This document shows positions 11,177-30,466 of a stretch of DNA of 64,000 bases, in pieces. Every line of letters starts with the position of its first letter. Position 1 is the first letter of the stretch. Position numbers and translations under genes: made by a program. This DNA comes from an uncultured Butyrivibrio sp. (GTDB lineage Bacteria > Bacillota > Clostridia > Lachnospirales > Lachnospiraceae). A model generated the notes under the pieces. The model searched no databases. It had not been told where the DNA came from and worked only from the letters and a program-made list of their open reading frames with translations. The stretch covers positions 1-64,000 of the forward strand of contig CAMORK010000002.1 of NCBI GenBank assembly GCA_946623755.1. Direction: 5' to 3'.

Positions 11177-11249
11177 TCGGAGTGACGTGATTCGAACACG
11201 CGGCCCCTACCTCCCTAAGATAGTGCTCTACCAACTGAGCCACACCCCG
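11177..11249 (-). tRNA. tRNA-Pro (anticodon AGG)
   Basis: A 73-base cloverleaf read by eye. The acceptor is CGGGGTG / CACTCCG with one G-T pair, and the first pair C1-G72 and discriminator A73 are as usual for proline tRNAs. The D-arm is GCTC...GAGC. The anticodon stem CTATC/GGTAG encloses loop TTAGGGA, giving AGG with G37. The T-arm is GCGTG-TTCGAAT-CACGT. CCA is not encoded. A34 would need deamination to inosine to read more than CCU; A34 outside tRNA-Arg(ACG) is uncommon in bacteria though known in some Firmicutes. Confidence 0.92.
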
Positions 11250-11289
11250 ATTTGGGTTGTCGCAGGTTTCTCAACCAGCGACAAAAGCT

Positions 11290-11368: not shown

Positions 11369-12967
11369 TTAAATTTCCCAATTCATATAAACTATGAGCG
11401 AACACAGCAATGTAGCGGCCATACAGAAGTTCACAATAAATCTCAGTGCGCTTCCCATAATGCTCTTAACACCTCCGGAGCTGTTCCCGTTACCTGCGTT
11501 TTCCTCATCGCCACTTTTTTGCAACAGCACATACCCCAGCGATGTGAACACCAGTGAAGCTGTCATATATCTGAAGTCGCTCGAGCAGGTATAAGGATAC
11601 TTGAAGACGTACAAACAGAAGCTAAGGAGCATAAACACATAAGTTGACCACAGGAACAGATCCCTTAAGGCCGTCCCTTCCCCTGCTCCCTTAAGCGCCT
11701 TAACAGCATAGTATCCGATAAATACTACAGTTGTTATAACCGCAAGAATAATTGAAGCCACATAGGCAATCTGAGCAAAGGCAAGAAGGAAATCCCCGAT
11801 GTTCGCAGGATATGCTTCTGCAAAAAGACCTGTCTGGAACAGTATTACCCATGTGTTGTGGATTGCCTTGGCACTGAGCGGGTGGAAAGGGAAACCGACA
11901 TGAAGATCTGCGATTGTAGGTATTCCGATAATTGACCAGACCGAGAACTCTCCTGTGTACATTACAGACTCATTGGGAATGAGCGCCGGAGAAGGAATTC
12001 CGGGCTTCTCACCAAAAAGTATCAGATTTCTCACAATGTATGAGAGCCCTATCGGAATACATATAACTCCAAACACCACATACTGCAAAATAGTCTTCCT
12101 GATCGGAACAAGGTTCTTTGACTTTATAACATCCACCAGAACTATAACAAATATCAGCGCAATAGAGAACGCGCAGATAGCTGTATTTAGCTTGCTTATC
12201 ATTCCAAAGCCAAGAGAGAGTGCTATCAGGATAATATTCCTGTAGGTCTTTTCCCTGATCCAGACAAGAGTGCGCCAGATGGTTGTAAGCAGTAAGAGCA
12301 GTGCCAGAATATCGTTGTTTACTGAACCTGCAAGCACCATCATTCTGGGGTGAAAGGCAAATAACAACATTCCGAAGGTCATGAGCTTTTTGGATACACC
12401 GCTCTCCTCCAGTATATGAAGCATAACCATCATGCAAAGTCCGGAGTATATAAGAGTCGGGATCTGAAGGTTCTCAAAAGCCAGCAATTCGGGCACGCCT
12501 ATAAGTCTCTGGATAGTCATCCAGATTGCCTCAATGATATGGTGAAGCGGCGGATGATAATATCCAAAATACTCATACGGATCCATGTCCGGTATATGGA
12601 AGAATTTGTAAATATACTCCACATATCCGATATGTCCGTTGTTGATATTGGGAGTTCCGAAACCGGTGAAGGTTCCTCCGTCGTTCTGAAGTGTCCAGAT
12701 GTCCATAAATAGCACATAAGAGACGCGCATCAGCATTCCAAGAAATATCACATAGAGAATGCTTTTTTCGGAATACATATTTCCTTTGGCGAGCCCTGCA
12801 ATATAAAATGCCACCGCCAAAAATCCTATCAAAAAGATCACTGCAATCTGTGGTTGTCTCTCTGCTCCCGCAACAACTGAGGTTACAGGATTGCCCTGCA
12901 AGAGCGCTGTTACAAGCGCCATTATAATGATCATTAAAGTCCCAACACGATAAATCTTTTTTTCCAT
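11369..12967 (-). CDS. Polytopic membrane protein, GT39/ArnT-like glycosyltransferase
   Basis: 532 residues with roughly 11-13 membrane segments. An early extracytoplasmic loop holds acidic residues and YYHPPLHHIIEA, resembling the catalytic loop of PMT/ArnT-type (GT-C fold) glycosyltransferases that use polyprenyl-linked sugars. The specific donor and acceptor cannot be told from the sequence. It follows the MglB-like lipoprotein gene by 7 bases and ends the minus-strand signalling block, an unusual partner for such genes. A different polytopic function is possible; the glycosyltransferase call rests on overall pattern rather than a diagnostic motif. Confidence 0.65.
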   Translation of the reverse strand: MEKKIYRVGTLMIIIMALVTALLQGNPVTSVVAGAERQPQIAVIFLIGFLAVAFYIAGLAKGNMYSEKSILYVIFLGMLMRVSYVLFMDIWTLQNDGGTFTGFGTPNINNGHIGYVEYIYKFFHIPDMDPYEYFGYYHPPLHHIIEAIWMTIQRLIGVPELLAFENLQIPTLIYSGLCMMVMLHILEESGVSKKLMTFGMLLFAFHPRMMVLAGSVNNDILALLLLLTTIWRTLVWIREKTYRNIILIALSLGFGMISKLNTAICAFSIALIFVIVLVDVIKSKNLVPIRKTILQYVVFGVICIPIGLSYIVRNLILFGEKPGIPSPALIPNESVMYTGEFSVWSIIGIPTIADLHVGFPFHPLSAKAIHNTWVILFQTGLFAEAYPANIGDFLLAFAQIAYVASIILAVITTVVFIGYYAVKALKGAGEGTALRDLFLWSTYVFMLLSFCLYVFKYPYTCSSDFRYMTASLVFTSLGYVLLQKSGDEENAGNGNSSGGVKSIMGSALRFIVNFCMAATLLCSLIVYMNWEI

Positions 12968-12974
12968 TTTCCAA

Positions 12975-14003
12975 TTACCTGCTTAAATATTTAATAATGT
13001 TAGATGAAGTAACCTTTTCGTAAGGAAGCCTTATATATCTTCCGTTCTCGATAGTATATCTGTCCGAAAGCTCTTCAATACTGCCCCCGCGGGCAAGGAC
13101 GCTGGCGAGTTCGAACATTGCTGTAGCCTGTCCTTCCTTGTCATTGTATACTGTCCCCAGCATCTTGTCATCCCTGACAGCCTCAAGCCCCACGTTCGTT
13201 CCGTCTATTCCAAATATCACCGGCCATTTATTTCTTGGCACAGCCTTAGCCTCATAAGCATCAATTGCCCCAAGAGCCATATCATCATTGTTGGAAAGCA
13301 CAAGTTCAATGTTATAGCCATAGTCCTCAATAAACTGTGTAGCCTTGGTCTGAGCCTGAGCCCTGTTCCAGTTTGCAATCGCATATCCGAGCTTATCAAT
13401 CTCAATGCCCTGTTTTTTCAAAGTGTTGACAGAAGCCTCGGTCCTTACTATTGCATCCTGATGTCCTGCCTCACCTTCAAGCACGACATACTGGATCACG
13501 CCATCGCCGTTTTTATCGATATCTTTCTTGGTAAGACACGCCCAGGCTGCCAGTTCCCCCTCCATGACTCCCGATTCCTCAGCATTTGCTCCCACATAAA
13601 AGAGCTTGTTCCATCTGCCAATATCTCCTTCAACCAGTTCTCTGTTAAAGAAGATAACAGGCACGTCACTCTTCCTTGCAGCGTCTATAACAGCTGTCGG
13701 ATCTGTCCTGTCCACCAGATTCACGCAAATGACATCCACACCGTCTTCGATCATCTTCTTGACCTGTGAATTCTGAATCTGCTGACTTTGAGCCGCATTG
13801 TAAATTGCAATCTCAACATCCTCACTTTGGAACGTCAAAAAGCAGTCCACAAGCTGTCCCACAAAGGTGTCGTACTGATCATATACAGTGACACCGATCT
13901 TCAGTTTTGATTCATTCTTATTTACAGTCTGCTTTCCGCAACCAGCCAGTGCCACGGTCAAAAGACATATCGCCAGAAGCAGCGATACATAAACCTTTTT
14001 CAT
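12975..14003 (-). CDS. MglB-like galactose/glucose-binding lipoprotein (second copy)
   Basis: About 342 residues. The signal peptide ends in the lipobox VALAGC. The mature part matches the galactose-binding protein family: VPVIFFNREL, YVGANAEESG, an EF-hand-like calcium loop DKNGDGVIQ and SNNDDMALGAIDA. It is clearly related to the MglB at 29310-30440 but has no ATPase or permease next to it. It follows the sensor, kinase and regulator genes, so a role in sensing, or as an extra binding protein for the mgl transporter, is likely. The track start at 14018 is a TTG; the Met at 14003 has GAGG six bases upstream and gives a normal signal peptide. Confidence 0.85.
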   Translation of the reverse strand: MKKVYVSLLLAICLLTVALAGCGKQTVNKNESKLKIGVTVYDQYDTFVGQLVDCFLTFQSEDVEIAIYNAAQSQQIQNSQVKKMIEDGVDVICVNLVDRTDPTAVIDAARKSDVPVIFFNRELVEGDIGRWNKLFYVGANAEESGVMEGELAAWACLTKKDIDKNGDGVIQYVVLEGEAGHQDAIVRTEASVNTLKKQGIEIDKLGYAIANWNRAQAQTKATQFIEDYGYNIELVLSNNDDMALGAIDAYEAKAVPRNKWPVIFGIDGTNVGLEAVRDDKMLGTVYNDKEGQATAMFELASVLARGGSIEELSDRYTIENGRYIRLPYEKVTSSNIIKYLSR

Positions 14004-14037
14004 ATTCATCCTCATCAATTCTTACTTCCAAAACAAA

Positions 14038-15015
14038 CTAGTGCTCTACAGGGAAAAGAATCCTCTGATTGCCCTCCTCAAACAGGTTATCCCTGTTCAC
14101 CACTCTGAAAGGGATCTTCTCATCCTGCATGGGTGTAAGCCTGTTATCAAGCCTTCCGGCAACTGCCGTCACCGACTGATAACCCATGTAATACTCATTT
14201 GGTACCACCATACTCTTTATCAGCCCATCATCCAGGTAACTGACATTTTTTATGGATGTTCCCACTCCGAAGATAGTCGGAATCTCCTCGATCTTTTGCG
14301 CGTATTCACACGCAGCCTCAAGTCCGTTGTTGTCGAGCGCAACAATTATATCTGCTTTTGTTTCGTTCTGTCGCCTTACAAGTCTGTCTGTCATACTTAC
14401 AGAATCATAATCCGACCAGGCAATCTCAGCTCCCGACGACTGAATGTTCTCGGTAAATCCCTGAAGTCTCTCAGAGAGAGCATTCTGTCTCAGATTTCCT
14501 GTTACTATTCCTATTGCTTTACCACTAAGGTCATTGCCGTAAGCAATCCTTACTTCATTGGCAAGAGCTCTTCCAAGTTCCACATTATCAGCCTGTATAC
14601 AGGCCGATCTTCCCTCTACATCTACGTCTGTATCCGCACTGGTATCAACGAGTAACAGAACTGCTTTTGAGCTTATATCCGATATGAGATTCTCAGTTCC
14701 TCTGCTTCCGGATATCTGCAAAACTATGCCGTCTGCGCCGTCGGAAATCTCCTCATTTATTATCTTGTACTGCTGGCTGAGTGTCAGATTTTTGCCTGTT
14801 GATACGATGTTCAGTTTAATATTTTTGTCCTTGGCCGCCTGTTCAAGCCCCGATATAAAAGAGGTCCACCTTCCCGAGCCGCTGTCGTCTATCACCACCG
14901 ATATTTCGGGAGAATCTTCTCTGATCCCGCTCAGGATCAGCGCCGAAGTCGAAGCCAGAAAGATAATGAACAAAAGGGTCGCCACCACAAGGATAAACAG
15001 ATTTCTATTTTTCAT
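14038..15015 (-). CDS. Membrane-anchored periplasmic-binding-type sugar sensor
   Basis: 325 residues. One N-terminal membrane helix (about 6-28) lacks a lipobox cysteine and a clear cleavage site, so it looks like a signal anchor. The rest is a type I periplasmic sugar-binding fold (ISVVIDDSGSG..., DGIVLQISGS, ADIIVALDNNGLEAACEYA). It overlaps the YesM-type kinase gene by 11 bases and has GGAGAAAGAGG before its ATG. The arrangement of anchored binding protein, LytS/YesM kinase and YesN regulator resembles the xylose sensor XylFII-LytS described in Clostridium. The likely role is to bind an extracellular sugar and signal to the kinase (inferred). Confidence 0.8.
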   Translation of the reverse strand: MKNRNLFILVVATLLFIIFLASTSALILSGIREDSPEISVVIDDSGSGRWTSFISGLEQAAKDKNIKLNIVSTGKNLTLSQQYKIINEEISDGADGIVLQISGSRGTENLISDISSKAVLLLVDTSADTDVDVEGRSACIQADNVELGRALANEVRIAYGNDLSGKAIGIVTGNLRQNALSERLQGFTENIQSSGAEIAWSDYDSVSMTDRLVRRQNETKADIIVALDNNGLEAACEYAQKIEEIPTIFGVGTSIKNVSYLDDGLIKSMVVPNEYYMGYQSVTAVAGRLDNRLTPMQDEKIPFRVVNRDNLFEEGNQRILFPVEH

Positions 15016-16876
15016 CCTCTTTCTCCTTTCCGGACTCCAGCATTTTCCGGTTATCCTCGTTGTATTCTATTGCAGGCAAATGAATGGTAACTGTCGTGCC
15101 CTCATCAGGCTCGCTCTCTATCTTAAGACCATACTGCTGCCCAAACCTGAGCTGAATTCTTCTCTGCACGTTGATAAGCCCAACTCCCGAGCCTTTCTTC
15201 CTTACTCTTGTATCATCAGTTAAAAGAAGCTCTGTCTGGCTGCTGCTCATTCCAAATCCGTTGTCGGAAACAGTGATGTAAATATCTCCGTCATCGCCTT
15301 TAAATCCCCTGACAACAATCTCTCCGTCCTCCATGTCTTTTACGCCATAGTAGACTGCATTTTCCAGGATAGGCTGCACGATAAGCTTAACCGTACAGTA
15401 GCTCTTTATCGCCTCGTCAATATCAAACTCTACAGAAAAAGCATCCTTGAATCTGACCTTCTGGATGTTCATATAATTGCTGGCGTGACGGATCTCATCA
15501 CCTATTGGAATGATGGTCTTACCGCTTGATAAGCTGACTCTGAAAAGAGAAGCCAGCTGAGTTATCATGAATACCGCCTCATTATATTTTTCGCCCTCGA
15601 TCATCCATACGATGGAATCCAGGGTATTATACAAAAAGTGAGGATTTATCTGAGACTGAAGGGCATCAAGTTCTGCCTTTCTCTTCTCTTCCTGTGATGC
15701 CACCATGTCCCGCATAAGCTCATTTATCTGATCATAACTGTCTCTGAGTGTCCTTCCCAGATGTTCAACCTCTGAAGGTCCTCCGATATAAACACTCGGA
15801 TCAGCTTTGCCCATCTCTATATCTCTGATTGAATCATTAAGTCTTACAAGCGGTCTTGTAACGCGCCTTGCCACAAATCTGTTAAGTATGAGCATGGCAA
15901 GGAGAGTGATCGAGATTACCATCATTACGAAATATCTTATATCTTTCATTCCCATATAAGAGTTACTTGTGGGAATTACACTCACCAGCTTCCATCCCGT
16001 GTAGCTCATGGTATCAACTGTGACAATTCTTTCGCTGCCCTCAAATATCTCCTTGTGACTTCCGTCATCGTAAGAAGCTGCATCCAGATTGTTTTCCTTA
16101 AACAGACCGGCACTTATCTGCATAAGCATCGGGTGATAGATGATAGATCCGCTGTTATCCATAAGATATACATACTGCTCGGAAGGGTTGTTGTTGACCG
16201 CCTCCATCATATCTTCAATAACAGCGTAGTTCATATCAACAAGAAGAACACCCTGCTCCGGTACGCCGCCGTTATTGAGCTCAACATTTCTGCTGAGGGA
16301 CGTAACCCAGTAGTACTTAAAAGTAGGGTCATCAACGAAAATATTCTGAACATGCGGAAGTGAAAAATGAAGGTTCTCAGGCTTGGCAAGTGCTGACACA
16401 AACCAGGACTGGTCTGTAACATCCACGCCTTCCTTTTGAACACCTACGGGAGAAGCTGCAATAAGTCTTCCATCCTCTGAAAAAAGTGCAAGACTTATAA
16501 GATAGTCCTTGTGAGCCTCATACAGAAGGTTCATCTGAGATATGGGTGTTTCCTTACTGATGTCCTGATCCTTGACTACGTTGTAGTAGATGGCATCGGA
16601 CATTCTTCGCATGCTGCGCAGGTAGTCCTCAAGGGTAATTACGCTTTGATCCAGAGTAAGTTCAGTTGAGTCTGTCAGCATTTTCTCAGACCTTACGGCA
16701 AATCTCTGATAAAGAGCCACTCCCATTGCGAGCATACAAACTAAAGCTACAACTGTAAATGAAACTGCAATTGTAGCCTGAATACTTCTTGTGGCTCCGG
16801 ACCTCATATATCTCGAGATCAGCCACTGCATTTTTAAGTTATCGAATTTTCCCTTCAAAAACTTTTTTAAACGCAC
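15005..16876 (-). CDS. YesM/LytS-type sensor histidine kinase
   Basis: 623 residues starting with GTG (AAGGA upstream). Layout: membrane helix at about 35-58, an extracytoplasmic Cache-like sensor domain (60-300), a second helix (about 310-330), HAMP (335-390), the His_kinase domain with QINPHFLYNTLDS (phospho-acceptor His), and HATPase_c with QPILENAVYYGV, SDNGFGM and GSGVGLINV. It autophosphorylates and passes phosphate to the YesN regulator encoded 6 bases upstream. The adjacent anchored binding protein probably contributes ligand sensing. Confidence 0.93.
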   Translation of the reverse strand: MRLKKFLKGKFDNLKMQWLISRYMRSGATRSIQATIAVSFTVVALVCMLAMGVALYQRFAVRSEKMLTDSTELTLDQSVITLEDYLRSMRRMSDAIYYNVVKDQDISKETPISQMNLLYEAHKDYLISLALFSEDGRLIAASPVGVQKEGVDVTDQSWFVSALAKPENLHFSLPHVQNIFVDDPTFKYYWVTSLSRNVELNNGGVPEQGVLLVDMNYAVIEDMMEAVNNNPSEQYVYLMDNSGSIIYHPMLMQISAGLFKENNLDAASYDDGSHKEIFEGSERIVTVDTMSYTGWKLVSVIPTSNSYMGMKDIRYFVMMVISITLLAMLILNRFVARRVTRPLVRLNDSIRDIEMGKADPSVYIGGPSEVEHLGRTLRDSYDQINELMRDMVASQEEKRKAELDALQSQINPHFLYNTLDSIVWMIEGEKYNEAVFMITQLASLFRVSLSSGKTIIPIGDEIRHASNYMNIQKVRFKDAFSVEFDIDEAIKSYCTVKLIVQPILENAVYYGVKDMEDGEIVVRGFKGDDGDIYITVSDNGFGMSSSQTELLLTDDTRVRKKGSGVGLINVQRRIQLRFGQQYGLKIESEPDEGTTVTIHLPAIEYNEDNRKMLESGKEKEDEK

Positions 16877-16882
16877 GACTAA

Positions 16883-18481
16883 TTATTCCTTGCCGTTTTT
16901 GTATTTTGACGGCGAGACCCCGAACTGTTTTTTGAATACATAACTGAAATAATTAGGATCCGAATATCCTACTTCCTGGGCTATTATATAGGTCTTTTCA
17001 TCGGTCTCAAGAAGCATTCTCTCCGCCTTCTCCATCCGGTAATCGGTGAGATAGCCTACAAAGGTCTTACCGGTTTCTTTTTTAAAGACAGTGGAGAAAT
17101 AAGCGCTGCTGACCCCGAGGTAATTACATATAAAATCCACCGACAGATCCTGATCCGCATAGTGGTCTGCCACATATTCCTGTGCCCTTGTGACAAAAGA
17201 CCTTGTGGTGTCATTTCTCTTATAGTCGATCAGCTCGTGTATTTTAACGCATACATCGCCAAACCATGCTGTGAGCTCTCCCGGCTCCAGCTGCTGAACT
17301 GTAGCATATACATCGGTGTTCATATCAAAAATCTCAGAAAGCTCGAGCTGATTGGTCTTGGCAAATTTGTACAGCTCACTCACCAGCTCCATGACAAAAA
17401 ACCTGTAATTCTGTATTGATGCCTGAACCCTGGTATTATTGTCGATATATCTTTCTGCGGCGCTGCGAACCTCATCAGCACCTGACATTTTCATTTTCTT
17501 GAAGATGTCAAACAAAGAGTCCTCATCTCCGAAGGATGAATCTTCTTTTTCCTTGGGAGAAATCTCGGAAATGTTGATAGCCTTGGTATGTCCGTAAAGT
17601 ACTCTGTAAGACACCGCATCTCTTGCGCCCTGATAGGATGTATCAATTCCTGAAAGACTGTCTGTTACACTGCCTACGCCAATCGTGATATTCGCCTTAC
17701 AGATACTCTCAGCCAGTCTGCAAAGTCTGTCACAGTCATCGGTGAAAGCAGATGCATCCTTCTTAGAAGAGAGCTGCGCGATCATAACGGTACTGCCCTG
17801 ATATGAAAAGAACTTGCAGCCCCATTTTTCGTTCATCCTCTCCTCAAGGAGCTTGCGCACCGACACAGAAAGAAGAACAGGATTCATTCCATCCGGGATA
17901 TTTGACTTGCTGACATGAACTATTGCAGCCAGATAAACAGGCCCCGTAAGTTCAATCCTGTAATCAGACATGAATTTCTCTATCCTGTCATCCTCTATCC
18001 TGCCTTCCACCAGGGATGCAAAGAAATCCTCCTGCAAAAGAGGCAGTGAATCCATATAATAATTCTCAAGTTTTGCTACGTTTTGCTTCTCGTCTATATC
18101 GCGGTCAAGAGCCTCATGAACTCTGGTAAATACAGCCTTGAGCTCGTCGGCATCTATAGGCTTTAAAATATACTCCTCAGCCTCAAGTCTGATGGCTTCC
18201 TTGGCGTATTCAAACTCATCAAATCCCGAAAAGAAAATGATCCTTATATTGGGATAGAGGCGCTTTAAATTCCTTGCAAGCTCCATTCCATCCATATAAG
18301 GCATCTTAATATCGGACATAACAACATCAGGCCTTAGTTCCTCAGCAAAATCCAGAGCTTCAAGACCGTTATGTGCGTATCTGGGAGTCTCAAATCCCAT
18401 GTTCTCCCAGTCAAGTTTTTTCATGATCGCCTGCGCTACATCTTCCTCATCGTCCACAAGCATGACTTTATATCTGTTCAT
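16883..18481 (-). CDS. YesN-type response regulator, REC plus AraC DNA-binding domain
   Basis: 532 residues. The N-terminal receiver has MLVDDEED and DVVMSDIKMPYMDG with the phospho-acceptor Asp. The middle region is long and helical. The C-terminal AraC/HTH_18 domain includes YLGVSSAYFSTVFKKETGKTF and YSDPNYFSYVFKKQFG. It is the only gene in the nine-gene block with an obvious DNA-binding output, so it is the most likely transcriptional effector, with the mglBAC operon as the natural target (inferred). It follows the small membrane gene by 15 bases. Confidence 0.93.
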   Translation of the reverse strand: MNRYKVMLVDDEEDVAQAIMKKLDWENMGFETPRYAHNGLEALDFAEELRPDVVMSDIKMPYMDGMELARNLKRLYPNIRIIFFSGFDEFEYAKEAIRLEAEEYILKPIDADELKAVFTRVHEALDRDIDEKQNVAKLENYYMDSLPLLQEDFFASLVEGRIEDDRIEKFMSDYRIELTGPVYLAAIVHVSKSNIPDGMNPVLLSVSVRKLLEERMNEKWGCKFFSYQGSTVMIAQLSSKKDASAFTDDCDRLCRLAESICKANITIGVGSVTDSLSGIDTSYQGARDAVSYRVLYGHTKAINISEISPKEKEDSSFGDEDSLFDIFKKMKMSGADEVRSAAERYIDNNTRVQASIQNYRFFVMELVSELYKFAKTNQLELSEIFDMNTDVYATVQQLEPGELTAWFGDVCVKIHELIDYKRNDTTRSFVTRAQEYVADHYADQDLSVDFICNYLGVSSAYFSTVFKKETGKTFVGYLTDYRMEKAERMLLETDEKTYIIAQEVGYSDPNYFSYVFKKQFGVSPSKYKNGKE

Positions 18482-18496
18482 AGTTCACCCGATAGT

Positions 18497-18808
18497 TTAC
18501 TCAGCATATTTTTCATGTACAAACTTCCACATGAATCCCATGATCACGACAGCCACCACAATAAGAATAAGTGCAGCTATCGGATCAAAGAAAGAAACGA
18601 TTCCCATTGTGATTGCCGCTATGCCCAGGAAAATAATGATCAGCCCTGCGAAAAAAGTATACTCTCTTGGGTGTTTGATACTCTCCGGATTATCCTTTTT
18701 GATGATCTTCACATCTCTTGTAACGATGAGTCTGATACCAAAAAACATGCAAACGAGAAATGCCAGTATTTCGATCCCCATGTGATTAATTATTGTCTGT
18801 ATGTTCAT
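18497..18808 (-). CDS. Small two-TM membrane protein
   Basis: 103 residues from the Met at 18806-18808, chosen because GGAGAG lies five bases upstream; the track start at 18832 lacks this. Hydrophobic helices are seen at about 8-28 and at about 52-95 (probably two closely spaced helices), with a basic segment VTRDVKIIKKDNPESIKHPRE between. It overlaps the upstream GGDEF-like gene by 23 bases, so translation is probably coupled. No family recognised. Its place inside the signalling block suggests an accessory membrane role, but nothing in the sequence defines it. Confidence 0.7.
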   Translation of the reverse strand: MNIQTIINHMGIEILAFLVCMFFGIRLIVTRDVKIIKKDNPESIKHPREYTFFAGLIIIFLGIAAITMGIVSFFDPIAALILIVVAVVIMGFMWKFVHEKYAE

Positions 18809-20927
18809 TTTTACTCTCCTGCTTTCTACCAATCAGGTCATCTGCCCTGTTTAGTACTATATTAATATCTTTTGTCCCATACAAACAATACACTGAAGAG
18901 ACGTTTGCTTCAATAGCATTTTCTTTAAACATCTTTTTGAGTCTCTCGACGTCGCTCTCAAAATAAGCTTCCTCTGTCTCAAATCCAAAGGCATAAAACT
19001 GTGTGCCGCTTATTCTGAACACGCCGGAATCACCGAATATCTCTGTAAGAATCCTTGCTGCAACCACAACAATCTGATCACCCACTTCAAATCCTTCCGA
19101 GATATTGACCTCATCAAGTTTGACAAGATCACAGCGAACCAGCCCAAATGGCTGAGACATATCAAGTCCGTGCTCTAAGTATTTTTTGAAAGCAGCATAA
19201 TTGCTTAAGCCCGAGAGTGCATCTTTATAGGTATAATTCAGCGCCCTGCTCTGTTCTTCTCTCTGTAGAACGAGCTGTGCAAGAAAATAGCTTATGAGAT
19301 TGATGATCTCAGACACTGTCTCGAGCTTCTTTGAAGTTGCTCCCACAACACCGCAGACACCAAAAAGATTGCCTCCCACTTCAAGAGGGCCAATTATCAT
19401 GTTATCTACTTTATTGGTTTTTAACAGGCTGTAAAAGCCCGGAATCGAATTTCTGAATTCTTCCGGATCCCTGACTATCAGCCTGTGATCGTTTTTATTG
19501 AATGCATCATATATCCTGTCAATTATATCCTCTGACGACAAATACATCATTTCAAGAGAAAAAGACTCCTCTCCTTCTTTGTACCATTCATAAGTGCCCT
19601 TGTATTTTCCGTTCTTCTGGTCTTCAAAGATAAAGATTCGCCTGGCATCAAGCTCTTTTCCCAAATAAGCAAGGATTGACCTTATATTCGAATCCGGGGA
19701 GTTGGATGAAAGTGCATACTGAAGCGCACGATTTATGAAGCGGTCACGCTCAATGGCAGCACTGTCCTTCATCCACCATCTGAGAAATTCAATCAGCTCA
19801 ATTGCCACGTAGACAGTAGCACCTATTCGGGTAAAGAGGCCAAATCGCTCAGTAGTCCTTCCGGCCATAAAGTACTGGGCAATATCCAGAAAACCGCTGC
19901 CGGCAAAGATGATCCCACTGATATACAGATATCTGAGTCTGTTTTTCTTTCCTGTTTTTCTGCAGTAAACAGCGTTATCCAGAACCATTATGATAAATAT
20001 TGCAAGGCCGATAATGATATATGCTCCGGCAAACCAGGGGAAGGAATCCATCATATCAATCCCTAATGCATAACGAATGGTTATAATGCCAAAGACACTG
20101 ACCATGGATAACCAAAAGCCCAGATGCTTATATATTTCCCGCTTCTTTTCTGTCTGCGAATTAAAAAAGAGTATGCTGGGATATGCGATCATAAACGGAA
20201 TTATCCTGTTGATATCTCTGCAGACATAAATATGACCTGTGATCAGCTGGAAGATATCCGTGCCGATCAGCAACCAGATTCCTGTAAGTACAGCACTGCT
20301 TCCAAGTGCAAGAACATTAAACGGAAATGCTGATTTATTGGATGATCCGACAAAGGCAATGAGGAATATCAGCCCCAGGAATATATTGAGAATACAGAAT
20401 ATGCATGAAAAGAGACTTTTCCTGATCACCAGCTGAATGAAATCCGAGGCAGAGCATAGATAAACATCAAAAACGGTTCCGTTTTTCTGACCTTCGTAGA
20501 CCTGCTCAAATTCAAGTCTTATGGTCTTTCCTGCATCGTCCTTGTTTATCCCTATTTCGTGAAATGCAACTCCGTAGCACATTCCAGTGAGATTAGACAT
20601 GCTGTAGAATCTGTATACCTGCCTCCCGCCTATGAAAACTCTGATATTTGTGTTCTTTGATTTAAAGCACAGTGCATCCTTGTCCGTTATGCCACCGGAC
20701 AGCTTTTTTTCAACCGCAATCCTTCCACCGTAGTCTTTGATATTAAGGTCATCAACATAAACCTTCTCACCGCCCGGAAGCATCCAGCCATCGGAATATC
20801 CGTCTATATTCTCATGGCTTGTGATCAGCCTGTCTGTAGACATAGGTATCCCGATGAGGATTATCGCAATAAGAATTGCAAAGAATACAGCATATATTAA
20901 GTTTATGAGTGACTGTTTACTCTTCAT
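18786..20927 (-). CDS. 7TM-GAF-degenerate GGDEF signalling protein
   Basis: 713 residues. The first helix is followed by an extracytoplasmic beta-rich domain (about 35-165) resembling the 7TMR-DISM extracellular type. A run of about seven membrane helices (170-390), a GAF-like domain (about 405-560) and a GGDEF fold (about 570-700) follow. The catalytic signature reads SGTQF instead of GGDEF, so diguanylate cyclase activity is unlikely and a binding or protein-interaction role is more probable. Its start overlaps the stop of the DegV-containing kinase by 4 bases (ATGA). Confidence 0.85.
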   Translation of the reverse strand: MKSKQSLINLIYAVFFAILIAIILIGIPMSTDRLITSHENIDGYSDGWMLPGGEKVYVDDLNIKDYGGRIAVEKKLSGGITDKDALCFKSKNTNIRVFIGGRQVYRFYSMSNLTGMCYGVAFHEIGINKDDAGKTIRLEFEQVYEGQKNGTVFDVYLCSASDFIQLVIRKSLFSCIFCILNIFLGLIFLIAFVGSSNKSAFPFNVLALGSSAVLTGIWLLIGTDIFQLITGHIYVCRDINRIIPFMIAYPSILFFNSQTEKKREIYKHLGFWLSMVSVFGIITIRYALGIDMMDSFPWFAGAYIIIGLAIFIIMVLDNAVYCRKTGKKNRLRYLYISGIIFAGSGFLDIAQYFMAGRTTERFGLFTRIGATVYVAIELIEFLRWWMKDSAAIERDRFINRALQYALSSNSPDSNIRSILAYLGKELDARRIFIFEDQKNGKYKGTYEWYKEGEESFSLEMMYLSSEDIIDRIYDAFNKNDHRLIVRDPEEFRNSIPGFYSLLKTNKVDNMIIGPLEVGGNLFGVCGVVGATSKKLETVSEIINLISYFLAQLVLQREEQSRALNYTYKDALSGLSNYAAFKKYLEHGLDMSQPFGLVRCDLVKLDEVNISEGFEVGDQIVVVAARILTEIFGDSGVFRISGTQFYAFGFETEEAYFESDVERLKKMFKENAIEANVSSVYCLYGTKDINIVLNRADDLIGRKQESKNEHTDNN

Positions 20928-23900
20928 AACATGTCTTCCGTAACATCTGACAACAGCTTTATCTCTTCATAATCCTGCCGCTTAAAAGCAATTTCTATCC
21001 TGTTCATTTTCTCCTGATGTTTTTCAGGGATGTCATATTCCGAAATATCCCTCAGCGTCATCCCGATCATCCTGTCATTGCGCTCCATTGCAGCTTTTCT
21101 AATGGTATCGTAAGCACTTTTGACCAGGATTTTGTCAAAATGGTCATCAACATCCTTTTTGCTGTTACAGAAAGGTTCAAGATTCCTTTTACAGTCTTTG
21201 AGTCTTTCCACAAAATCTTCATTATTATTCCGGATATAGTCCGTATCGTCATTCTTCCCGGCCATTTCAAGCTTTTCCGCATTGTTTCCGAGACTCATTG
21301 CTCCGATCAGCCTTGAAGAACTCTTAAGAGCATGAACCTTGATCGTATAGTCTTTCCAGTTTTCTGCAGCATAGAAATCTTCAAGCTCCTGTATCCTCTG
21401 ATCCAAAGAATCATAGAATATCTGAAGAACGGATTTAAATGCCTCTTCCGATCCGCTGTTTTCCATGGCCTTTTCTGAATCAATCCCGGGTATCTCTTCA
21501 TACCATTTTGTTTTGTCTTCATTTACTTCTTCATACTCTGAAACCGGAACCTGATCTTCGGTAAATTCTATATATTCAGCCTGATTGTTGTCACCGCCTT
21601 GATGAAGTGCATTTGACAGGACCTGACTTAGGCCATAAGGCTCATCTTTCTTTATCAGATACATGATACCCATAGCACCATGGCCACAGTTTAAAGACAT
21701 AACAGAAGAAACCTTCTGGAAGAGAATATGTTCAAAGTTATGCCTCTTCCTGATGGCTTTTTCGACAATCTCTTTTTCCTCATCTGTAAGCGAAATATAA
21801 TCTACTATCGCCACATCAAGATCAGGGTTTGCATTTCTCGGAAGAATAAAATCAAGGTACTTCTGATAGCACTCGTCCATCTCGCCTGTGAATATCCTGC
21901 CTATAGTCACCTTACCGCCTTTGATGTTGATGACAGGCCTTAATCCGAAGGTACTTACAAGTGCATAGGTTGACCTTCTTATACCTCCGCGCTTCATGAG
22001 GAACTCTGCATTCCCGGTAACGAAGCTGCATTTTAAGTTCTTTTTAACCTTTTCCAGATCACCTATTATCCTGTCAAACGCTCTTCCCTGTATTGACATC
22101 CTGTATGCCAAAAGAACGAGCATACCAAGGGCGCTGGAATTGGCTTCTGAATCTATTACCGATACATTTCCGTAAGCCCTTGCTGCTTCAAGTGCGTTTT
22201 CATACTCCTTACTGATTCCGGCAGATACCGCAATGTATATGATCTGATGGGCTTTTTTGACCTCCTGGGCAAAAAACCTCTCGAATTCCGGTACTGTAGG
22301 AGGTGATGACGTAAACTGCGCACCTTCCGCCACATAGCGCATCACTTCATCACTGCTTGCTTCATCATAATCGTAATAGGATTTTCCGTCAGACATAATG
22401 GAGAACGGAATTATATCTATCTGATGTTCCCACAGTGTCTTTCTTGGCAGATCGCACATGCTGCTGGTTGCGACAATGATAGGCATCTTCTTGATGTAAG
22501 CCCTTGAAGAATTCATTTTTGCCCCTTCAAGGTCAGACCCTTCTGTCCTTACAATCTTAGACTCCTGAAGGTGATCAAGGATCATTTCTTCAAGCTGTTC
22601 ACCTGATATCGGTTTTACCAGATATCCATCAAAACCGCTTCTTTCATACAGCTCCCTGCTCTCGGAATCGGCGTTTGCTGTAAGTGCAATGACAGGCGTA
22701 TGATTGTTATGGCCTCCAAGCTGCTTTCTGATCAACTGCAGACATTCAACGCCATCCATACCGGGCATGAGATGATCCATTAAAATAACATCATATGCCT
22801 CTGCATATGTCATGGAAAGAGCCTCAGGACCGCTTAAGGCAGTGTCAATAACAATCTCTGTACCATCAAGAAGTTTCTTTTCAACTTCAAGATTCATCTC
22901 ATTATCATCGACAATAAGTATCCTTGCTTCGGGTGCAATAAATCCCGGAATATATTTTCCCTTTAACTCTCTCTTTCCGTAGTTTTCAATGCTTATCTCA
23001 CCTACAGGCTCACGCCTTGTCACTTTCTGTTTAAGTGACACAATAAAGGTTGAACCTTCAGTATAGGTGCTGTTTACGGTGATTTTGCCGTCCATCAGCT
23101 CCACCAGCTGTTTAACGATAGACAGACCAAGACCTGTACCCTCTATCTTGGCATTTCTCTCCTCGTCCATTCTGGCAAAAGCATCAAAAAGATATGGAAT
23201 AACATCCTGCTTGATTCCCATACCGGTATCAATTACCGAGATCAGAAGAACAACCTCATCACCTTTTGTATTTTCTTCTTTCTCAATACGCAGTGTAACA
23301 GAGCCTTCCTGAGTATACTTGACCGCATTGTTGAGCAGATTTACAAGTATCTGCTTTAATCTCACTTCATCGCCAAAGAGCTCGGCGGGAATCGTCGGAT
23401 CAACTTCAAGATTAAGTGTCAGATCTTTTTGCTGGGCCCTTAACCAGATCATGTTTACAATCTCGGAGATCACGTTTCCAAGGTTATAGTTTACAGGCAC
23501 AATATCCATCTTGCCCGCTTCGATCTTGGACATATCCAGAATGTCATTTATAAGAGACAGCAACATTTTACCGGCTCCCTGAATGTTTTTGGCGTCATTT
23601 ATGATTTCATCGGAAGCATCTTCCTGCCGCAGGATGATCTCATTAAGTCCCAGGATAGAATTTATCGGAGTCCTTATCTCATGGCTCATATTGGAAAAGA
23701 ACCTGTTCTGAGATCTGTTGAGTTCTTCAACCTTTCTGGTCTCTTCCTTGGCTCTTTTATTCTCTTCATCATAAAGCCACTCCTCAAACCAGACCATGAA
23801 GCAGCATATGATACCTACAAGTACCATTGAAATAAGGGAATCGGCAAAGAAAGCCTCTCTTGTATGCTCTACAACCCATTCCGGGAAAAAGTAACCTATA

Positions 23901-24325
23901 GCATACAGAATGACGGACTCAATAGTGAGCACCACGAGCATCAGCGGTTTCCAGAAGCCACTGAGCACAAGTCCTGTATAAAGAAACGTGAATATCATCC
24001 AAAGGATTCCGCCGCCGTATATTCCGCCGCCGGAAAAGAACACCAGGGGAAGGGCAACAAAAACCTGGCCCAATACGATAAGTCTTACCGCAATGGACAC
24101 ATGATTTCTCCTGATCGACACTATGGTTACAATCGGAATTGCCAGCACAATAATAACCAGCGCAATTATCTCAACCATGTTCTCGCCGAGAATAATATCA
24201 CCCAGAAGTGCCAGGAAGATAAAGAAATCCGTAACCATTGTAAGCAGTATGAATACACGCTCTTTAAAACTTCTTGAGGGGTCTTTAAGAAGGTTTTTTA
24301 CCTTCTGTATGATCTTATGAATCAT
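20924..24325 (-). CDS. Hybrid histidine kinase with embedded DegV domain and Hpt
   Basis: 1133 residues from the Met at 24323-24325, which has GGAGGTG five bases upstream. Layout: six membrane helices (25-185), HisKA with SHEIRTPINS (His about 215), HATPase_c, a receiver with LIVDDNEMN and DVILMDHLMPGMDG, then about 285 residues of DegV fold (VATSSMCDLP, FTSSPPTVPEF, AVSAGISKEYENA, MLVLLAY, KRGGIRRS...RPVINIKGGKV), and a C-terminal Hpt domain with HALKSSSRLIGA. DegV proteins bind fatty acids. The reading frame is continuous through every boundary, so this is a genuine fusion and not adjacent genes. The lipid-binding module inside a phosphorelay protein is very unusual. Confidence 0.9.
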   Translation of the reverse strand: MIHKIIQKVKNLLKDPSRSFKERVFILLTMVTDFFIFLALLGDIILGENMVEIIALVIIVLAIPIVTIVSIRRNHVSIAVRLIVLGQVFVALPLVFFSGGGIYGGGILWMIFTFLYTGLVLSGFWKPLMLVVLTIESVILYAIGYFFPEWVVEHTREAFFADSLISMVLVGIICCFMVWFEEWLYDEENKRAKEETRKVEELNRSQNRFFSNMSHEIRTPINSILGLNEIILRQEDASDEIINDAKNIQGAGKMLLSLINDILDMSKIEAGKMDIVPVNYNLGNVISEIVNMIWLRAQQKDLTLNLEVDPTIPAELFGDEVRLKQILVNLLNNAVKYTQEGSVTLRIEKEENTKGDEVVLLISVIDTGMGIKQDVIPYLFDAFARMDEERNAKIEGTGLGLSIVKQLVELMDGKITVNSTYTEGSTFIVSLKQKVTRREPVGEISIENYGKRELKGKYIPGFIAPEARILIVDDNEMNLEVEKKLLDGTEIVIDTALSGPEALSMTYAEAYDVILMDHLMPGMDGVECLQLIRKQLGGHNNHTPVIALTANADSESRELYERSGFDGYLVKPISGEQLEEMILDHLQESKIVRTEGSDLEGAKMNSSRAYIKKMPIIVATSSMCDLPRKTLWEHQIDIIPFSIMSDGKSYYDYDEASSDEVMRYVAEGAQFTSSPPTVPEFERFFAQEVKKAHQIIYIAVSAGISKEYENALEAARAYGNVSVIDSEANSSALGMLVLLAYRMSIQGRAFDRIIGDLEKVKKNLKCSFVTGNAEFLMKRGGIRRSTYALVSTFGLRPVINIKGGKVTIGRIFTGEMDECYQKYLDFILPRNANPDLDVAIVDYISLTDEEKEIVEKAIRKRHNFEHILFQKVSSVMSLNCGHGAMGIMYLIKKDEPYGLSQVLSNALHQGGDNNQAEYIEFTEDQVPVSEYEEVNEDKTKWYEEIPGIDSEKAMENSGSEEAFKSVLQIFYDSLDQRIQELEDFYAAENWKDYTIKVHALKSSSRLIGAMSLGNNAEKLEMAGKNDDTDYIRNNNEDFVERLKDCKRNLEPFCNSKKDVDDHFDKILVKSAYDTIRKAAMERNDRMIGMTLRDISEYDIPEKHQEKMNRIEIAFKRQDYEEIKLLSDVTEDML

Positions 24326-26387
24326 GAGACACCTCCATTCCGGCCTTTTTGCCACCAGACATAACGTGCATCATGACTCTCTCAAAATCATTTATGTTTA
24401 TAGGCTTACTTATGAATCCGTCAAAGCCCTCTTTCAGGAACATCTCTCTTGCACCGCTGACAGCATTGGCTGTGAGTGCGATCACAATGAGCTTTCTGTC
24501 TTTCTGATCTGCGATAAACCTGAGTTTCTTCATCGCCTCAACGCCGTCCATTTCAGGCATCATGTGATCCATAAAGACTATGTCATATGCCTCATGGTCA
24601 TACTTTATCAGAGCTTCCCTGCCACTGTCTGCCGTATCAACCACCATCTTATAATCCTTAAAAAGACCTGTGGCAACAACCAGATTCATAGGCTCATCGT
24701 CAACTATAAGAGCTCTTATTCCTTCCAGATTAAGCGCCTTATTTTCGGCGGTCTTCATAAATGAAGTCACGTCACTCTCTCCGTTTAATACCTTAGCAAC
24801 CGTATATCCGTAAACCGGCTTGGGCATGACAATGATCCGGTTCTTGTTCTTCATAGCAAAACCGGGTTCATTATACATTGCGACAGTGACCCCACTTTCA
24901 GATAATTCATCGAAGAAACCGGGATCCTGTTTATATTCGTCGACTCCCAAAAATACATGCGAAATCTTCCCCGTATCCAAAAGTCTTTTCAGCTCTTTCA
25001 GGGACGGAGCTGAGTATAGATTGATCCTGAGTCCCGTGGCCAGATTGGTCGCCATCATCTCATAAGCTCCACCGACCCTGAAATCATCCAGTTTGTCTGC
25101 AAGCACATGGAAAGCTACACCCAGGAATTTATCAGTATTTACAGTTATGCACGGAGTCGGATCAATAACTTCCTGTACAATACTCACTTTGACAACAGTT
25201 CCCGCTCCAATATTACTTTCAATTGATACAAAGCCGTGCATAAGCCTTGTAAAGCCATAGACGATTGAAAGCCCCAGTCCTATACCGCCGGTACTTCTGT
25301 TTCTCTTTTTATCAGCCTGATAGCTTCCTGTGGCAACTCTTTCCCTGACTTTTTCAGTCATACCGATACCTGTATCCATAACCTCGATTATCAGGTTAAT
25401 GCCGTAATCCTTCTTAATGCAGAAGACTCGTAGAAGAACTCCACCTTTTTTGGTGAACTTAAATCCATTGTCCACAAGATGCATGATTATCTTTTTCAGC
25501 TTCTTGGAATCACCTTTCAAAACAGCAGGCACAGACGGATCCAGATCGATGGTGAAATCAAGGCCTTTTTGCTGATACAGCATCTCATAATTTACCGCAA
25601 TATCGCTAAGGACTGATGTGATCATATACTTTTCTTCCTCTAAGACCGCATCTCCTCTTTCTATTTCACTGTAATCCTGAATATCTTCAATCTGGTAGGA
25701 AAGACGCATACCGGCATCTCTGATTGCCTGTACGTCAGCTCTTGGCTCCCTTTTCATGATCAGTGTAGACATACCGTTTATTACATTGACAGGTGTTCTT
25801 AGTTCATGGGAAATGTTGGCAAGGAAATCCTCCATGCCTTTTTTGACGTTCTCCTCAGTGTCCTGAACAGATTCTATATCTCCTTCAATCCTGCTCATAT
25901 TTCTGAGAATCTCATGAAGAGCTCTGTATATGCTTATTTCAACAACAATATGGAGAATTATCCTTGATATGGTTAAAGGTTCAAGCATAATACTGTTAGT
26001 GATCAGTCCAAAGATCAGCTGACCTGCCATAATGACAAAGAATTCCACAAGAATAACAGGCAAAAATTTCTTTCTGCCCATAACAGACGCTGTGATCATA
26101 AGAAGAACCGAAATAATGATGATATCGTAGAGACTGGTCTGATGAACACCATGAAAGAAAGCCACCATCATCGAGAAGATCAAAAAGAAATTCTCTCTGA
26201 ACCTGACTTCACCATAACCGGTTATGTGAATGCCCCAGCATGCGATTATACCTCCGGCAATAAGAGGTATCACCCAGAGTTCCCACCTTTGGGATATACT
26301 TTCCAGGATTGCTCCGATACAGGTTATCGTAATAATAATTACAACCACATTGTGGGCTCTTAGTGTCCGATTCGCTTTTTCGTTCAA
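24315..26387 (-). CDS. Hybrid histidine kinase with pseudo-receiver and receiver
   Basis: About 690 residues. The TTG at 26385-26387 is favoured as start because AGAGGG lies seven bases upstream; the track start at 26441 is also TTG and falls inside a terminator hairpin. Layout: six membrane helices (10-170), HisKA with NISHELRTPVN, HATPase_c with DTGIGM and GGIGLGLSI, a degenerate receiver-like domain lacking a clear Asp pocket, and a true receiver with LIVDDEPMN and DIVFMDHMMPEMDG. There is no Hpt of its own. The next gene overlaps by 11 bases and encodes an Hpt, so cross-relay between the two is plausible. Confidence 0.9.
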   Translation of the reverse strand: MNEKANRTLRAHNVVVIIITITCIGAILESISQRWELWVIPLIAGGIIACWGIHITGYGEVRFRENFFLIFSMMVAFFHGVHQTSLYDIIIISVLLMITASVMGRKKFLPVILVEFFVIMAGQLIFGLITNSIMLEPLTISRIILHIVVEISIYRALHEILRNMSRIEGDIESVQDTEENVKKGMEDFLANISHELRTPVNVINGMSTLIMKREPRADVQAIRDAGMRLSYQIEDIQDYSEIERGDAVLEEEKYMITSVLSDIAVNYEMLYQQKGLDFTIDLDPSVPAVLKGDSKKLKKIIMHLVDNGFKFTKKGGVLLRVFCIKKDYGINLIIEVMDTGIGMTEKVRERVATGSYQADKKRNRSTGGIGLGLSIVYGFTRLMHGFVSIESNIGAGTVVKVSIVQEVIDPTPCITVNTDKFLGVAFHVLADKLDDFRVGGAYEMMATNLATGLRINLYSAPSLKELKRLLDTGKISHVFLGVDEYKQDPGFFDELSESGVTVAMYNEPGFAMKNKNRIIVMPKPVYGYTVAKVLNGESDVTSFMKTAENKALNLEGIRALIVDDEPMNLVVATGLFKDYKMVVDTADSGREALIKYDHEAYDIVFMDHMMPEMDGVEAMKKLRFIADQKDRKLIVIALTANAVSGAREMFLKEGFDGFISKPININDFERVMMHVMSGGKKAGMEVSHDS

Positions 26388-26421: not shown

Positions 26422-26454
26422 AAAAAGGGATGCAGCCTCAAAAAGCTACATCCC
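26422..26454 (-). terminator. Terminator between mglC and the signalling block
   Basis: On the minus strand, GGGATGTAGC...GCTGCATCCC is followed by TTTTTATG. It separates the mgl transporter operon from the kinase genes downstream, which would then need read-through or a short promoter in the 30 bases that follow. Confidence 0.8.
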
Positions 26455-26521
26455 TATTATATCACGTCGTTATCGATATTGAGATAACTTCGTTAATAAT
26501 TATACATTAAATTTTAGTAAA

Positions 26522-27511
26522 TTACTTCTTAGCAACATACTTACGGATATCAAGTGAGATAGCTACGAAGATAACCAGTCCGATGAAGATGTACTGTGCG
26601 TTAGCATCAACACCAAGGTACTGAAGAGCTGCCTTCAAAAGCTCGAATACGGCAACACCGATGATGGCACTTGAAACCTTACCACGTCCACCTGTAACAG
26701 ATACACCACCGATTGTGCAGGCAGCGATAGCTTCCATCTCATAACCAAGACCAAGGTTTACTGATGCACCACCGGCCTTAGCACCAAGCATGAATCCTGC
26801 AAGGCCATACATCATAGCAGCCTTCATGTAGATGAGTACCATTGTAAGACGAACAGGAACACCGGCAACCTCTGCAGCCTGTGGGTTTCCACCGATTGCA
26901 TACATATACTTACCGTGACGTGTCATATTGAAGATGAACCATGTGATTGCTGCAACAATAATGGCAATCCAGATAAGGTAGCTTATGCCAAGGAACTTTC
27001 CTGTAGCGATGTTTGTGTACTGTGTTGTATATCCACCAAGAGGTGTAGCACCTGTGTAAATAAGAGCAAGTCCATAAACGATTTCCATCATGGCAAGTGT
27101 TGCGATGAATGGAGGAACGTGAAGGAATGCAATAAAGAATCCTGTGATCGCACCAAAGCATCCTGTGATTGCAAGTACAATAAGAAGTGCAACAAAGATG
27201 TTAAGTGGCTGCATATCAGGGAAGAACTTTCCTGAGTAGTCAATCTTCTGAAGAAGTGTACCTGCGATACATGCCGCAAAACCAATCATACGTCCTGCTG
27301 AAAGGTCACATCCTGCAGTGATAACACAACCTGCAATACCAAGGGCAATAACAAGTCTTGAACTCATATTCATAAGAATGTTGAACAGGTTGTTTGATGT
27401 AAGGAACCTGTCGTTTGTAATACCTGTGTAAATAACCAGGATGAACATAACGATGATAACACCGTTATTTATAAGAAAATCAATTGCTTTTTGCTGTTTT
27501 GTCTTAACCAT
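26522..27511 (-). CDS. mglC: Galactoside/ribose-type ABC transporter permease
   Basis: 329 residues with 8-10 membrane segments. It has the family pattern of MglC/RbsC, including NMSSRLVIALGIAGCVITAGCDLSAGR (quoted in part), FATIGGNPQAAEVAGV-like YAIGGNPQAAEVAGVP and GGVSVTGGRG near the C-terminus. It forms the channel for MglB-bound galactose or glucose and is energised by MglA, encoded 33 bases upstream. GAGAGG lies before ATG. Confidence 0.93.
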   Translation of the reverse strand: MVKTKQQKAIDFLINNGVIIVMFILVIYTGITNDRFLTSNNLFNILMNMSSRLVIALGIAGCVITAGCDLSAGRMIGFAACIAGTLLQKIDYSGKFFPDMQPLNIFVALLIVLAITGCFGAITGFFIAFLHVPPFIATLAMMEIVYGLALIYTGATPLGGYTTQYTNIATGKFLGISYLIWIAIIVAAITWFIFNMTRHGKYMYAIGGNPQAAEVAGVPVRLTMVLIYMKAAMMYGLAGFMLGAKAGGASVNLGLGYEMEAIAACTIGGVSVTGGRGKVSSAIIGVAVFELLKAALQYLGVDANAQYIFIGLVIFVAISLDIRKYVAKK

Positions 27512-27544
27512 TTCTTTTTCCTCTCTTATAATAGCCTGCGGATC

Positions 27545-29056
27545 TTAAAACTGAGTAGCGTAGCTCATAACCTTTTCCTGGGTCATGTCTGCTTCTTCTG
27601 TGATCTCGCCACGTAATTTACCGTTACACATTACATAAATTCGATCTGACATACCAAGAAGTTCCGCCATTTCGGAAGATATCATTATGATAGCCTTACC
27701 CTGCTTGGCAAGATCAGTCATGATCTCATAAATCTCATGCTTGGCACCTACGTCGATACCTCTTGTAGGCTCGTCCATTATAAGAATGTCAGGATCATTA
27801 GCAAGCCATCTTGATACGATAACCTTCTGCTGGTTACCACCGGAAAGGTTAGAGATGTGCTCCTGCATGCTTGGTGTCTTGATGCTGAGCTTTTCAATAC
27901 TGTCATCAACAACCTTGTTGATCTTAGGATGATCAAGAATGAATCCGCCGGTGAGATATTTGTTGTAAACAGATACACCAACGTTATCCTTGATTGAAAG
28001 GCATCCGAAGATACCGTTTCCTCTTCTGTCCTCAGTGATCATACCGATTCCGGCATTCATGGCATCTCTGGGGCTCTTTATCTTAACCTGTTTGCCATGA
28101 ATCTTGATCTCTCCGGCTGAAAGATTTCTGATACCGAACAGACCTTCCATAAGTTCTGTTCTCTGGGCTCCGACAAGTCCTCCAAATCCAAGGATCTCAC
28201 CCTTCTTCAAGTTGAAGGATACATTCTGGAAGGACTTCTCATGGATTGATGAAAGTCCGTTTACTTCCATAACCACCTCGCCCGGTGTTCTATCCTTTGG
28301 AGGATAGATATTTGTAAGCTCTCGACCTACCATCTTGGCAATAATATCGTCAATTGTAAGATCCTTGGCAGGCCATGTTCCGATGTATGTACCATCTCGC
28401 ATGATCGTAACATCATCAGCGATACGCTTGATCTCATCCATCTTGTGTGAGATATAGATCATGGCAACTCCCTTTTCTCTGAGCATTTCCATGATTCTGA
28501 AAAGTGCTTCTACCTCACTATCTGAAAGAGAAGATGTTGGCTCGTCGAAAATAATAACCTTGGCGTCATGTGATACAGCCTTGGCAATCTCTACTGACTG
28601 CATCTGTCCGATTGACAGTGTATCAAGCTGCGCCTTTGGATCAAAATCCATGTTGACTTCCTTGAGCCACTTCTCTGTTTCTTCGTACATCTTTTTATGG
28701 TCGATTACCTGAAATGGACCAAATTTCTTGACCGGGAATCTTCCAAGAAACATGTTCTCTCCAACGCTTCTTGCAAGTACCGGTTGCAATTCCTGATGCA
28801 CCATGGCTATACCTTTTTTCATAGCCTCATCAGGGTTGTCGATTGTTGTCTTTTCTCCGTCGATATAGATCTCTCCGGCATCCATCTTGTAAATACCGAA
28901 AAGACACTTCATAAGTGTTGATTTGCCGGCTCCGTTCTCTCCCATAAGTGCATGGACGGTACCGGGCCTAACTGCCAATTGTACGTTATCCAGTGCCTTT
29001 ACACCGGGAAAGGACTTGGATACGCCCCGTAGTTCCAATTTGTACTCTGATGCCAT
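27545..29056 (-). CDS. mglA: Galactoside/ribose-type ABC transporter ATP-binding protein, duplicated
   Basis: 503 residues with two ABC domains in tandem. The first has Walker A GENGAGKST, signature LSIGQMQ and Walker B IIFDEPTSSLS. The second has a degenerate Walker A (GLVGAQRTE), intact LSGGNQQK and LIMDEPTRGIDVGAK. This asymmetric pattern is typical of MglA/RbsA/XylG. The two sites together power uptake through MglC. It is separated from mglB by 253 bases containing strong hairpins, so its level may be set independently of the binding protein. Confidence 0.95.
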   Translation of the reverse strand: MASEYKLELRGVSKSFPGVKALDNVQLAVRPGTVHALMGENGAGKSTLMKCLFGIYKMDAGEIYIDGEKTTIDNPDEAMKKGIAMVHQELQPVLARSVGENMFLGRFPVKKFGPFQVIDHKKMYEETEKWLKEVNMDFDPKAQLDTLSIGQMQSVEIAKAVSHDAKVIIFDEPTSSLSDSEVEALFRIMEMLREKGVAMIYISHKMDEIKRIADDVTIMRDGTYIGTWPAKDLTIDDIIAKMVGRELTNIYPPKDRTPGEVVMEVNGLSSIHEKSFQNVSFNLKKGEILGFGGLVGAQRTELMEGLFGIRNLSAGEIKIHGKQVKIKSPRDAMNAGIGMITEDRRGNGIFGCLSIKDNVGVSVYNKYLTGGFILDHPKINKVVDDSIEKLSIKTPSMQEHISNLSGGNQQKVIVSRWLANDPDILIMDEPTRGIDVGAKHEIYEIMTDLAKQGKAIIMISSEMAELLGMSDRIYVMCNGKLRGEITEEADMTQEKVMSYATQF

Positions 29057-30440: not shown

Positions 30441-30466
30441 TTGTAACATCCTCCTTAAAGTAAGTT

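Follow-up and report, generated by a model that had tools for sequence, protein, structure and literature searches.

A hybrid kinase pair with a DegV domain, inserted as a cassette beside a probable three-component sugar sensor in one Butyrivibrio lineage

In known three-component sugar systems, such as CuaDSR of R. cellulolyticum, which has been compared with XylFII-LytS, a binding protein, a YesM/LytS kinase and a YesN regulator are encoded beside a transporter (PMC10384115). Tripartite hybrid kinases of the BarA/ArcB/TorS type have the domain order HisKA-HATPase-REC-HPt. The known proteins of the DegV/FakB family are stand-alone carriers, which deliver fatty acids to a kinase in lipid synthesis. 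Each of these three kinds is thus known, whereas the fusion of a DegV domain with a kinase is, as far as we found, apparently undescribed. A search of open-licence full texts yielded no description of a histidine kinase with a DegV domain, this absence being weak evidence.

The window considered here, a stretch of 64,000 nucleotides from an uncultured Butyrivibrio sp. (contig CAMORK010000002.1), contains nine consecutive open reading frames on the minus strand, running from 26387 down to 11369 after the genes mglC, mglA and mglB. In the order of transcription, the features are:

26522..30449, minus strand: mglC, mglA and mglB, an ABC transporter of the galactose/glucose type, upstream of the block
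26426..26455, minus strand: hairpin resembling an intrinsic terminator, in the interval between mglC and HK1
24315..26387, minus strand: HK1, hybrid kinase 5-6TM-HisKA-HATPase-pseudo-receiver-REC with no HPt, 690 aa from TTG 26387
20924..24325, minus strand: HKdegV, hybrid kinase 6TM-HisKA-HATPase-REC-DegV-HPt-C-terminal helical domain, 1133 aa from ATG 24325
18786..20927, minus strand: GGDEF7TM, receptor with an extracellular beta-sandwich, about 8 TM helices, GAF and a degenerate GGDEF domain
18497..18808, minus strand: smTM, small protein with three TM segments, a member of the sugar module and not of the kinase cassette
16883..18481, minus strand: YesN-type response regulator, REC-GGDEF_2-AraC HTH (domain scan)
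15005..16876, minus strand: YesM-type kinase, dCache-HAMP-His_kinase-HATPase (domain scan)
14038..15015, minus strand: SugSens, membrane-anchored sugar-binding sensor, Peripla_BP_4 with an N-terminal TM segment
12975..14018, minus strand: MglB2, an MglB paralog, the second substrate-binding lipoprotein
11369..12967, minus strand: PMT/GT39-like membrane protein

The starts of HK1 (TTG 26387), HKdegV (ATG 24325) and the small TM protein (ATG 18808) were fixed from relatives. The successive joints between the nine frames are then -11, -4, -23, +15, +6, -11, +19 and +7 bases. An earlier sequence-only reading had described nine minus-strand genes spaced by less than 40 bases downstream of mglBAC, and much of this description stands: all nine genes are there, the joints range from -23 to +19 bases, and mglC, mglA and mglB do precede the block. 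Domain scans bear out its identification of the YesM kinase, the YesN regulator, the anchored sugar sensor, the MglB paralog and the GT39-like protein. The degenerate GGDEF receptor is also real, its degeneracy holding in all 26 aligned members. Both hybrid kinases are real as well, but the DegV and HPt domains of the 1133-aa kinase had been missed. Between mglC and the block there is a strong terminator hairpin (26455-26426), and thus continuity of the transcript with mglBAC is not a given. A TATAAT-like -10 box immediately precedes this hairpin (26426-26470, minus strand) and is conserved in four genomes, so that a terminator and a possible promoter overlap here. Directly after the block there is a tRNA-Pro (AGG) gene (11176-11250, minus strand).

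The sugar half, smTM-yesN-yesM-SugSens-MglB2, is a conserved unit in 18 further Butyrivibrio regions, found by searching the genomes of the genus with YesM; it is followed by the GT39-like gene in some relatives only. In most of these regions the unit is preceded by mglBAC where the contig allows. A more distant transporter replaces mglBAC in two regions, and smTM is undetectable in a few. The latter gene lies ahead of yesN in most relatives without the kinase trio. The linkage of the binding protein, the kinase, the YesN regulator and the sugar ABC transporter is therefore conserved, as in a three-component sensor. Similarly to XylFII-LytS-YesN of C. beijerinckii and to CuaDSR, a sugar-binding protein is encoded beside a kinase and a YesN/AraC regulator, in linkage with a sugar ABC transporter. 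Unlike these systems, the window has two binding proteins, one anchored in the membrane and one MglB-like, and a small TM protein, and it carries the kinase cassette, inserted at this place in five genomes. The two binding proteins and smTM aside, the sugar half is ordinary. By analogy with XylFII-LytS-YesN and CuaDSR, the anchored sugar binder would activate YesM, YesM would phosphorylate YesN, and YesN would control the transporter. One genome contains two facing copies of the sugar module (L048:460-18184), and in one copy the MglB paralog lies within a frame of 952 aa.

The sequence-only reading regarded all nine genes as a single sugar-sensing system and proposed gene order in related genomes as the test. 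In these genomes the parts are scattered, in two pieces. The kinase trio neighbours the sugar half in only one of the 18 further regions (L063), and of the loci that carry HK1-HKdegV, with or without GGDEF7TM, 78 of the 80 named ones and 18 of 20 Butyrivibrio regions contain no mgl or YesNM gene. Among 49 genomes of the genus, 14 have both modules, four only the sugar module, 16 only the fused kinase and 15 neither; there is no significant association between the modules (simple Fisher test, p=0.13, relatedness ignored). Inheritance of the block as one operon is ruled out by this gene order. As each half is conserved apart from the other, the sugar half is indeed an integrated sensor, but the kinase half is a separate system, and in most relatives each half stands alone.

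Only five closely related genomes have the joined form, those of the window, L025 (NC2007), L026, L063 and L095 (XPD2006). In this one Butyrivibrio lineage, the cassette HK1-HKdegV-GGDEF7TM was inserted behind the mglC terminator. At the empty sites (L050, L053, L054), a hairpin follows mglC and smTM comes next, without intervening kinases; at the occupied sites (the window, L025, L026, L095), the trio lies between an equivalent hairpin and smTM. In L063, where the contig is cut short, GGDEF7TM adjoins smTM.

An integrated system in which the two hybrid kinases and the GGDEF receptor all perceive sugars and feed YesN is improbable. The tight, overlapping coupling into yesN, kept in L025, L026 and L095 and partly in L063, points in that direction, and because of it cross-talk is possible in the five genomes. 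However, most relatives have one half without the other, and the kinases contain no extracytoplasmic sugar-binding domain. Moreover, YesN had been called the only obvious DNA-binding output, which is true within the block, but the kinase cassette normally has its own receiver protein alongside as an output. The idea of integration survives only as a lineage-specific hypothesis for the five genomes. A tidy block of overlapping genes can thus be two systems of different origin.

The kinase half is built around a pair of hybrid kinases. HK1 directly precedes HKdegV in 76 of the 80 named loci, with a 4-base overlap in 63. Of the loci lacking a detected HK1, L139, L140 and L155 lie close to or at the end of their contigs, and in L141 the frame of the DegV kinase is split. 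The kinase and receiver catalytic residues of HK1 are invariant in 73 relatives. In HKdegV, the HisKA histidine, the N and G boxes, the aspartate and lysine of the receiver and the HPt histidine are all invariant in 22 sequences. The domains following its kinase core are:

22580..22921, minus strand: REC of HKdegV, with invariant Asp527 and Lys581
21656..22477, minus strand: DegV (FakB-type) domain of HKdegV (PF02645, E 3e-43; TIGR00762)
21242..21430, minus strand: HPt of HKdegV, phospho-acceptor His1008 (numbered from GTG 24355), invariant in 22 relatives

HKdegV thus has the phosphorelay domain order of the BarA/ArcB/TorS-type kinases, with invariant catalytic residues. It differs from them in a DegV domain of about 275 residues between REC and HPt, in the second hybrid kinase that is nearly always next door, and in that the HPt may be on either member of the pair. 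Two classes are seen. Proteins of the long class (about 1100-1200 aa), to which the window kinase belongs, end with REC-DegV-HPt. Those of the short class (about 890-900 aa) end with DegV, and a longer partner kinase carries the HPt. As each pair examined has its HPt on one of its two members, the relay is complete either way and both kinases appear to share it, and the swap of HPt between partners is a natural example of a phosphorelay seemingly shared across a kinase pair. The parts of such a relay are present in the pair. The phosphate would pass from both HisKA domains through the receiver of each kinase to the HPt of the pair and finally to a separate receiver protein. The window genome has a second DegV-kinase pair, in the order REC-GGDEF - HK1 - HKdegV (L202:3740-10526, contig C8), with a likely c-di-GMP output.

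The DegV domain scores well above the curated cut-offs (148.7 bits against 27 for PF02645, 159.5 against 99.7 for TIGR00762) and matches FakB structures by sequence. The predicted model has pLDDT 81.7 and pTM 0.48. In a Foldseek search, the best PDB matches of the modelled domain are all DegV/FakB proteins, with TM scores by target of up to 0.89 (FakB2, 4x9x). Residue positions were mapped on 4x9x with a 20-residue tag offset inferred from the chain length, which reproduces Thr61, Ser93, Arg170 and His266. In FakB1, the carboxylate is held by a network of Thr62, Ser95 and His270, the counterparts of Thr61, Ser93 and His266, and phosphorylation by FakA needs Arg173, the counterpart of Arg170 (PMC8892158, PMC9136124). 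The position of Thr61 is occupied by serine or threonine in 89 of 95 long-class domains, and Ser93 is kept as serine in 88 of them. The position of His266 is asparagine in 71 of 95 long-class and 21 of 25 short-class domains, histidine remaining in two and one, respectively. Arginine at the position of Arg170 is found in 12 of 95 long-class and 15 of 25 short-class domains; in a pairwise alignment, the window domain has glycine there. Thus, like the DegV/FakB proteins (PF02645; FakB2 4x9x and FakB1 5uto of S. aureus), the domain is full-length, with the fold predicted and the carboxylate-binding hydroxyls kept. Unlike these proteins, it resides within a hybrid histidine kinase and is not a separate soluble carrier, and unlike FakB2, it has lost Arg170 in most of the long class and mostly has asparagine for His266. 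The retention of the hydroxyls together with the frequent loss of Arg170 agrees with a ligand-binding domain that has ceased to work with FakA, the long class being the clearest case. The prevalence of asparagine means that the chemistry of the pocket may differ and that something other than a free fatty acid may be bound.

One possibility is that the domain is still a fatty-acid carrier handing its ligand to FakA, so that the kinase would be a bifunctional lipid-uptake protein. FakA genes are present in two close relatives, and in the window genome, which is 60% complete, only a partial, sub-cut-off match to FakA was found. The short-class domains that keep the arginine could have a FakA-linked role. 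However, in the class of the window kinase this residue, needed for phosphorylation by FakA (PMC9136124), is kept in only 12 of 95 domains, and such a role is highly improbable.

Neither kinase has a sizeable extracytoplasmic domain, and hence DegV is the obvious soluble candidate for a sensor, the membrane segments being the only rival input. We consider it nearly an even chance that DegV is a cytoplasmic sensor derived from FakB that binds a fatty acid or a similar acyl ligand. Positioned between REC and HPt, it would sense this ligand and gate the transfer of phosphate to the HPt. The membrane segments rather than DegV could be the true sensor, in which case DegV would bind no ligand and serve structurally, as a spacer or for dimerisation. 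The 6TM segment of HKdegV is conserved in length and sequence, and the frequent replacement of His266 and Arg170 in the long class agrees with a spacer as well. Nevertheless, the hydroxyls of Thr61/Ser and Ser93 and the region of the GPG loop stay conserved, the DegV fold is predicted to be intact, and the domain persists in all fused members despite their long divergence, which makes a mere spacer rather unlikely.

The acyl-sensing relay would usually deliver its signal to stand-alone receivers or c-di-GMP enzymes. A receiver protein is encoded near the DegV kinase in 73 of the 98 loci where the contig allows (55 of 76 long-class and 18 of 22 short-class loci). A counterpoint to a relay sensing through DegV is that about a quarter of the loci show no receiver nearby. 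A dual receiver without an output domain is present in 47 of the 80 named loci, most often directly downstream; other types are REC-GGDEF, REC-HD of the HD-GYP kind, REC-EAL-GGDEF and single receivers. Neighbour clustering revealed no constant lipid-gene neighbours, but only receiver proteins, the GGDEF receptor and a third kinase-like protein. A kinase-like protein (L142:2445-4751), one of five of this kind near DegV kinases, contains HisKA, REC and HPt and no ATPase domain by Pfam; it is possibly a relay hub unable to phosphorylate itself. The window cassette has no receiver of its own alongside, and several dual receivers are encoded elsewhere in the genome, one of them at 47769-48548. There (47769-51621, minus strand) a 1014-aa hybrid kinase TM-HisKA-HATPase-REC, with a sub-cut-off HPt match, is followed by the dual receiver, which belongs to the same family as the companion of many DegV kinases. 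In the five-genome lineage, the coupling into smTM-yesN could let the HPt reach YesN, and YesN is a conceivable, if doubtful, additional phosphate acceptor there.

The third member of the cassette, GGDEF7TM, resembles what we take to be its nearest known class, the 7TMR-DISM receptors with a GGDEF output, as its model has an extracellular beta-sandwich, about 8 TM helices, GAF and GGDEF. It has no match to the Pfam 7TMR-DISM families, and unlike the receptors with a GGDEF output, it has a degenerate motif, ISGTQF in the window and intact in none of the 26 aligned members. Thus it is probably not a cyclase, and diguanylate cyclase activity was rejected on the basis of the motif. Given its outside domain, it may report an external signal to the kinase pair.

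In a sample of 299 genomes from across Lachnospiraceae, 46 have a DegV match in a frame of at least 700 aa; in a class-wide sample, the fusion is present in two genomes, both from one other family. Among 31 genomes from the rest of the order, none showed the fusion. Only the best candidates were scored, and these counts are thus lower bounds. The named loci come mostly from Butyrivibrio and other rumen and gut Lachnospiraceae, isolates included. Misassembly of metagenomes was rejected as an origin of the fusion, as it is present in the Butyrivibrio sp. isolates XPD2006, NC2007, MC2021, INlla14, CB08 and LC3010 and recurs in a single reading frame. In the first DegV tree, which was distorted by one wrongly picked frame (L212), the 19 long-class domains are on one side of a branch with support 100/100, and the stand-alone domain L093 is among short-class fusions. 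The rebuilt tree requires two label changes between fused and stand-alone domains. Given the position of L093, one fusion and one later loss suffice, and a single origin is possible.

Taken together, a three-component sugar sensor joined by an inserted phosphorelay of two kinases, with DegV as the acyl-sensing domain, has in our estimate an even chance of being the correct reading of the locus. With a DegV domain as part of a signalling kinase, these bacteria would have a lipid sensor inside the cell, and the arrangement suggests a phosphate relay by which these inhabitants of rumen and gut perceive lipids. More tentatively, and with the balance somewhat against it, paired hybrid kinases, widespread in Lachnospiraceae, may sense cytoplasmic fatty acids or related lipids via a catalytically retired FakB domain and act on c-di-GMP and receiver outputs, and in this Butyrivibrio lineage the relay may be wired into a galactose/glucose operon, linking lipid status to sugar uptake. 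Butyrivibrio carries out biohydrogenation in the rumen and is inhibited by polyunsaturated fatty acids (PMC2836310). Fatty-acid sensing in this genus is therefore of practical interest, and HKdegV is a specific candidate gene for it.
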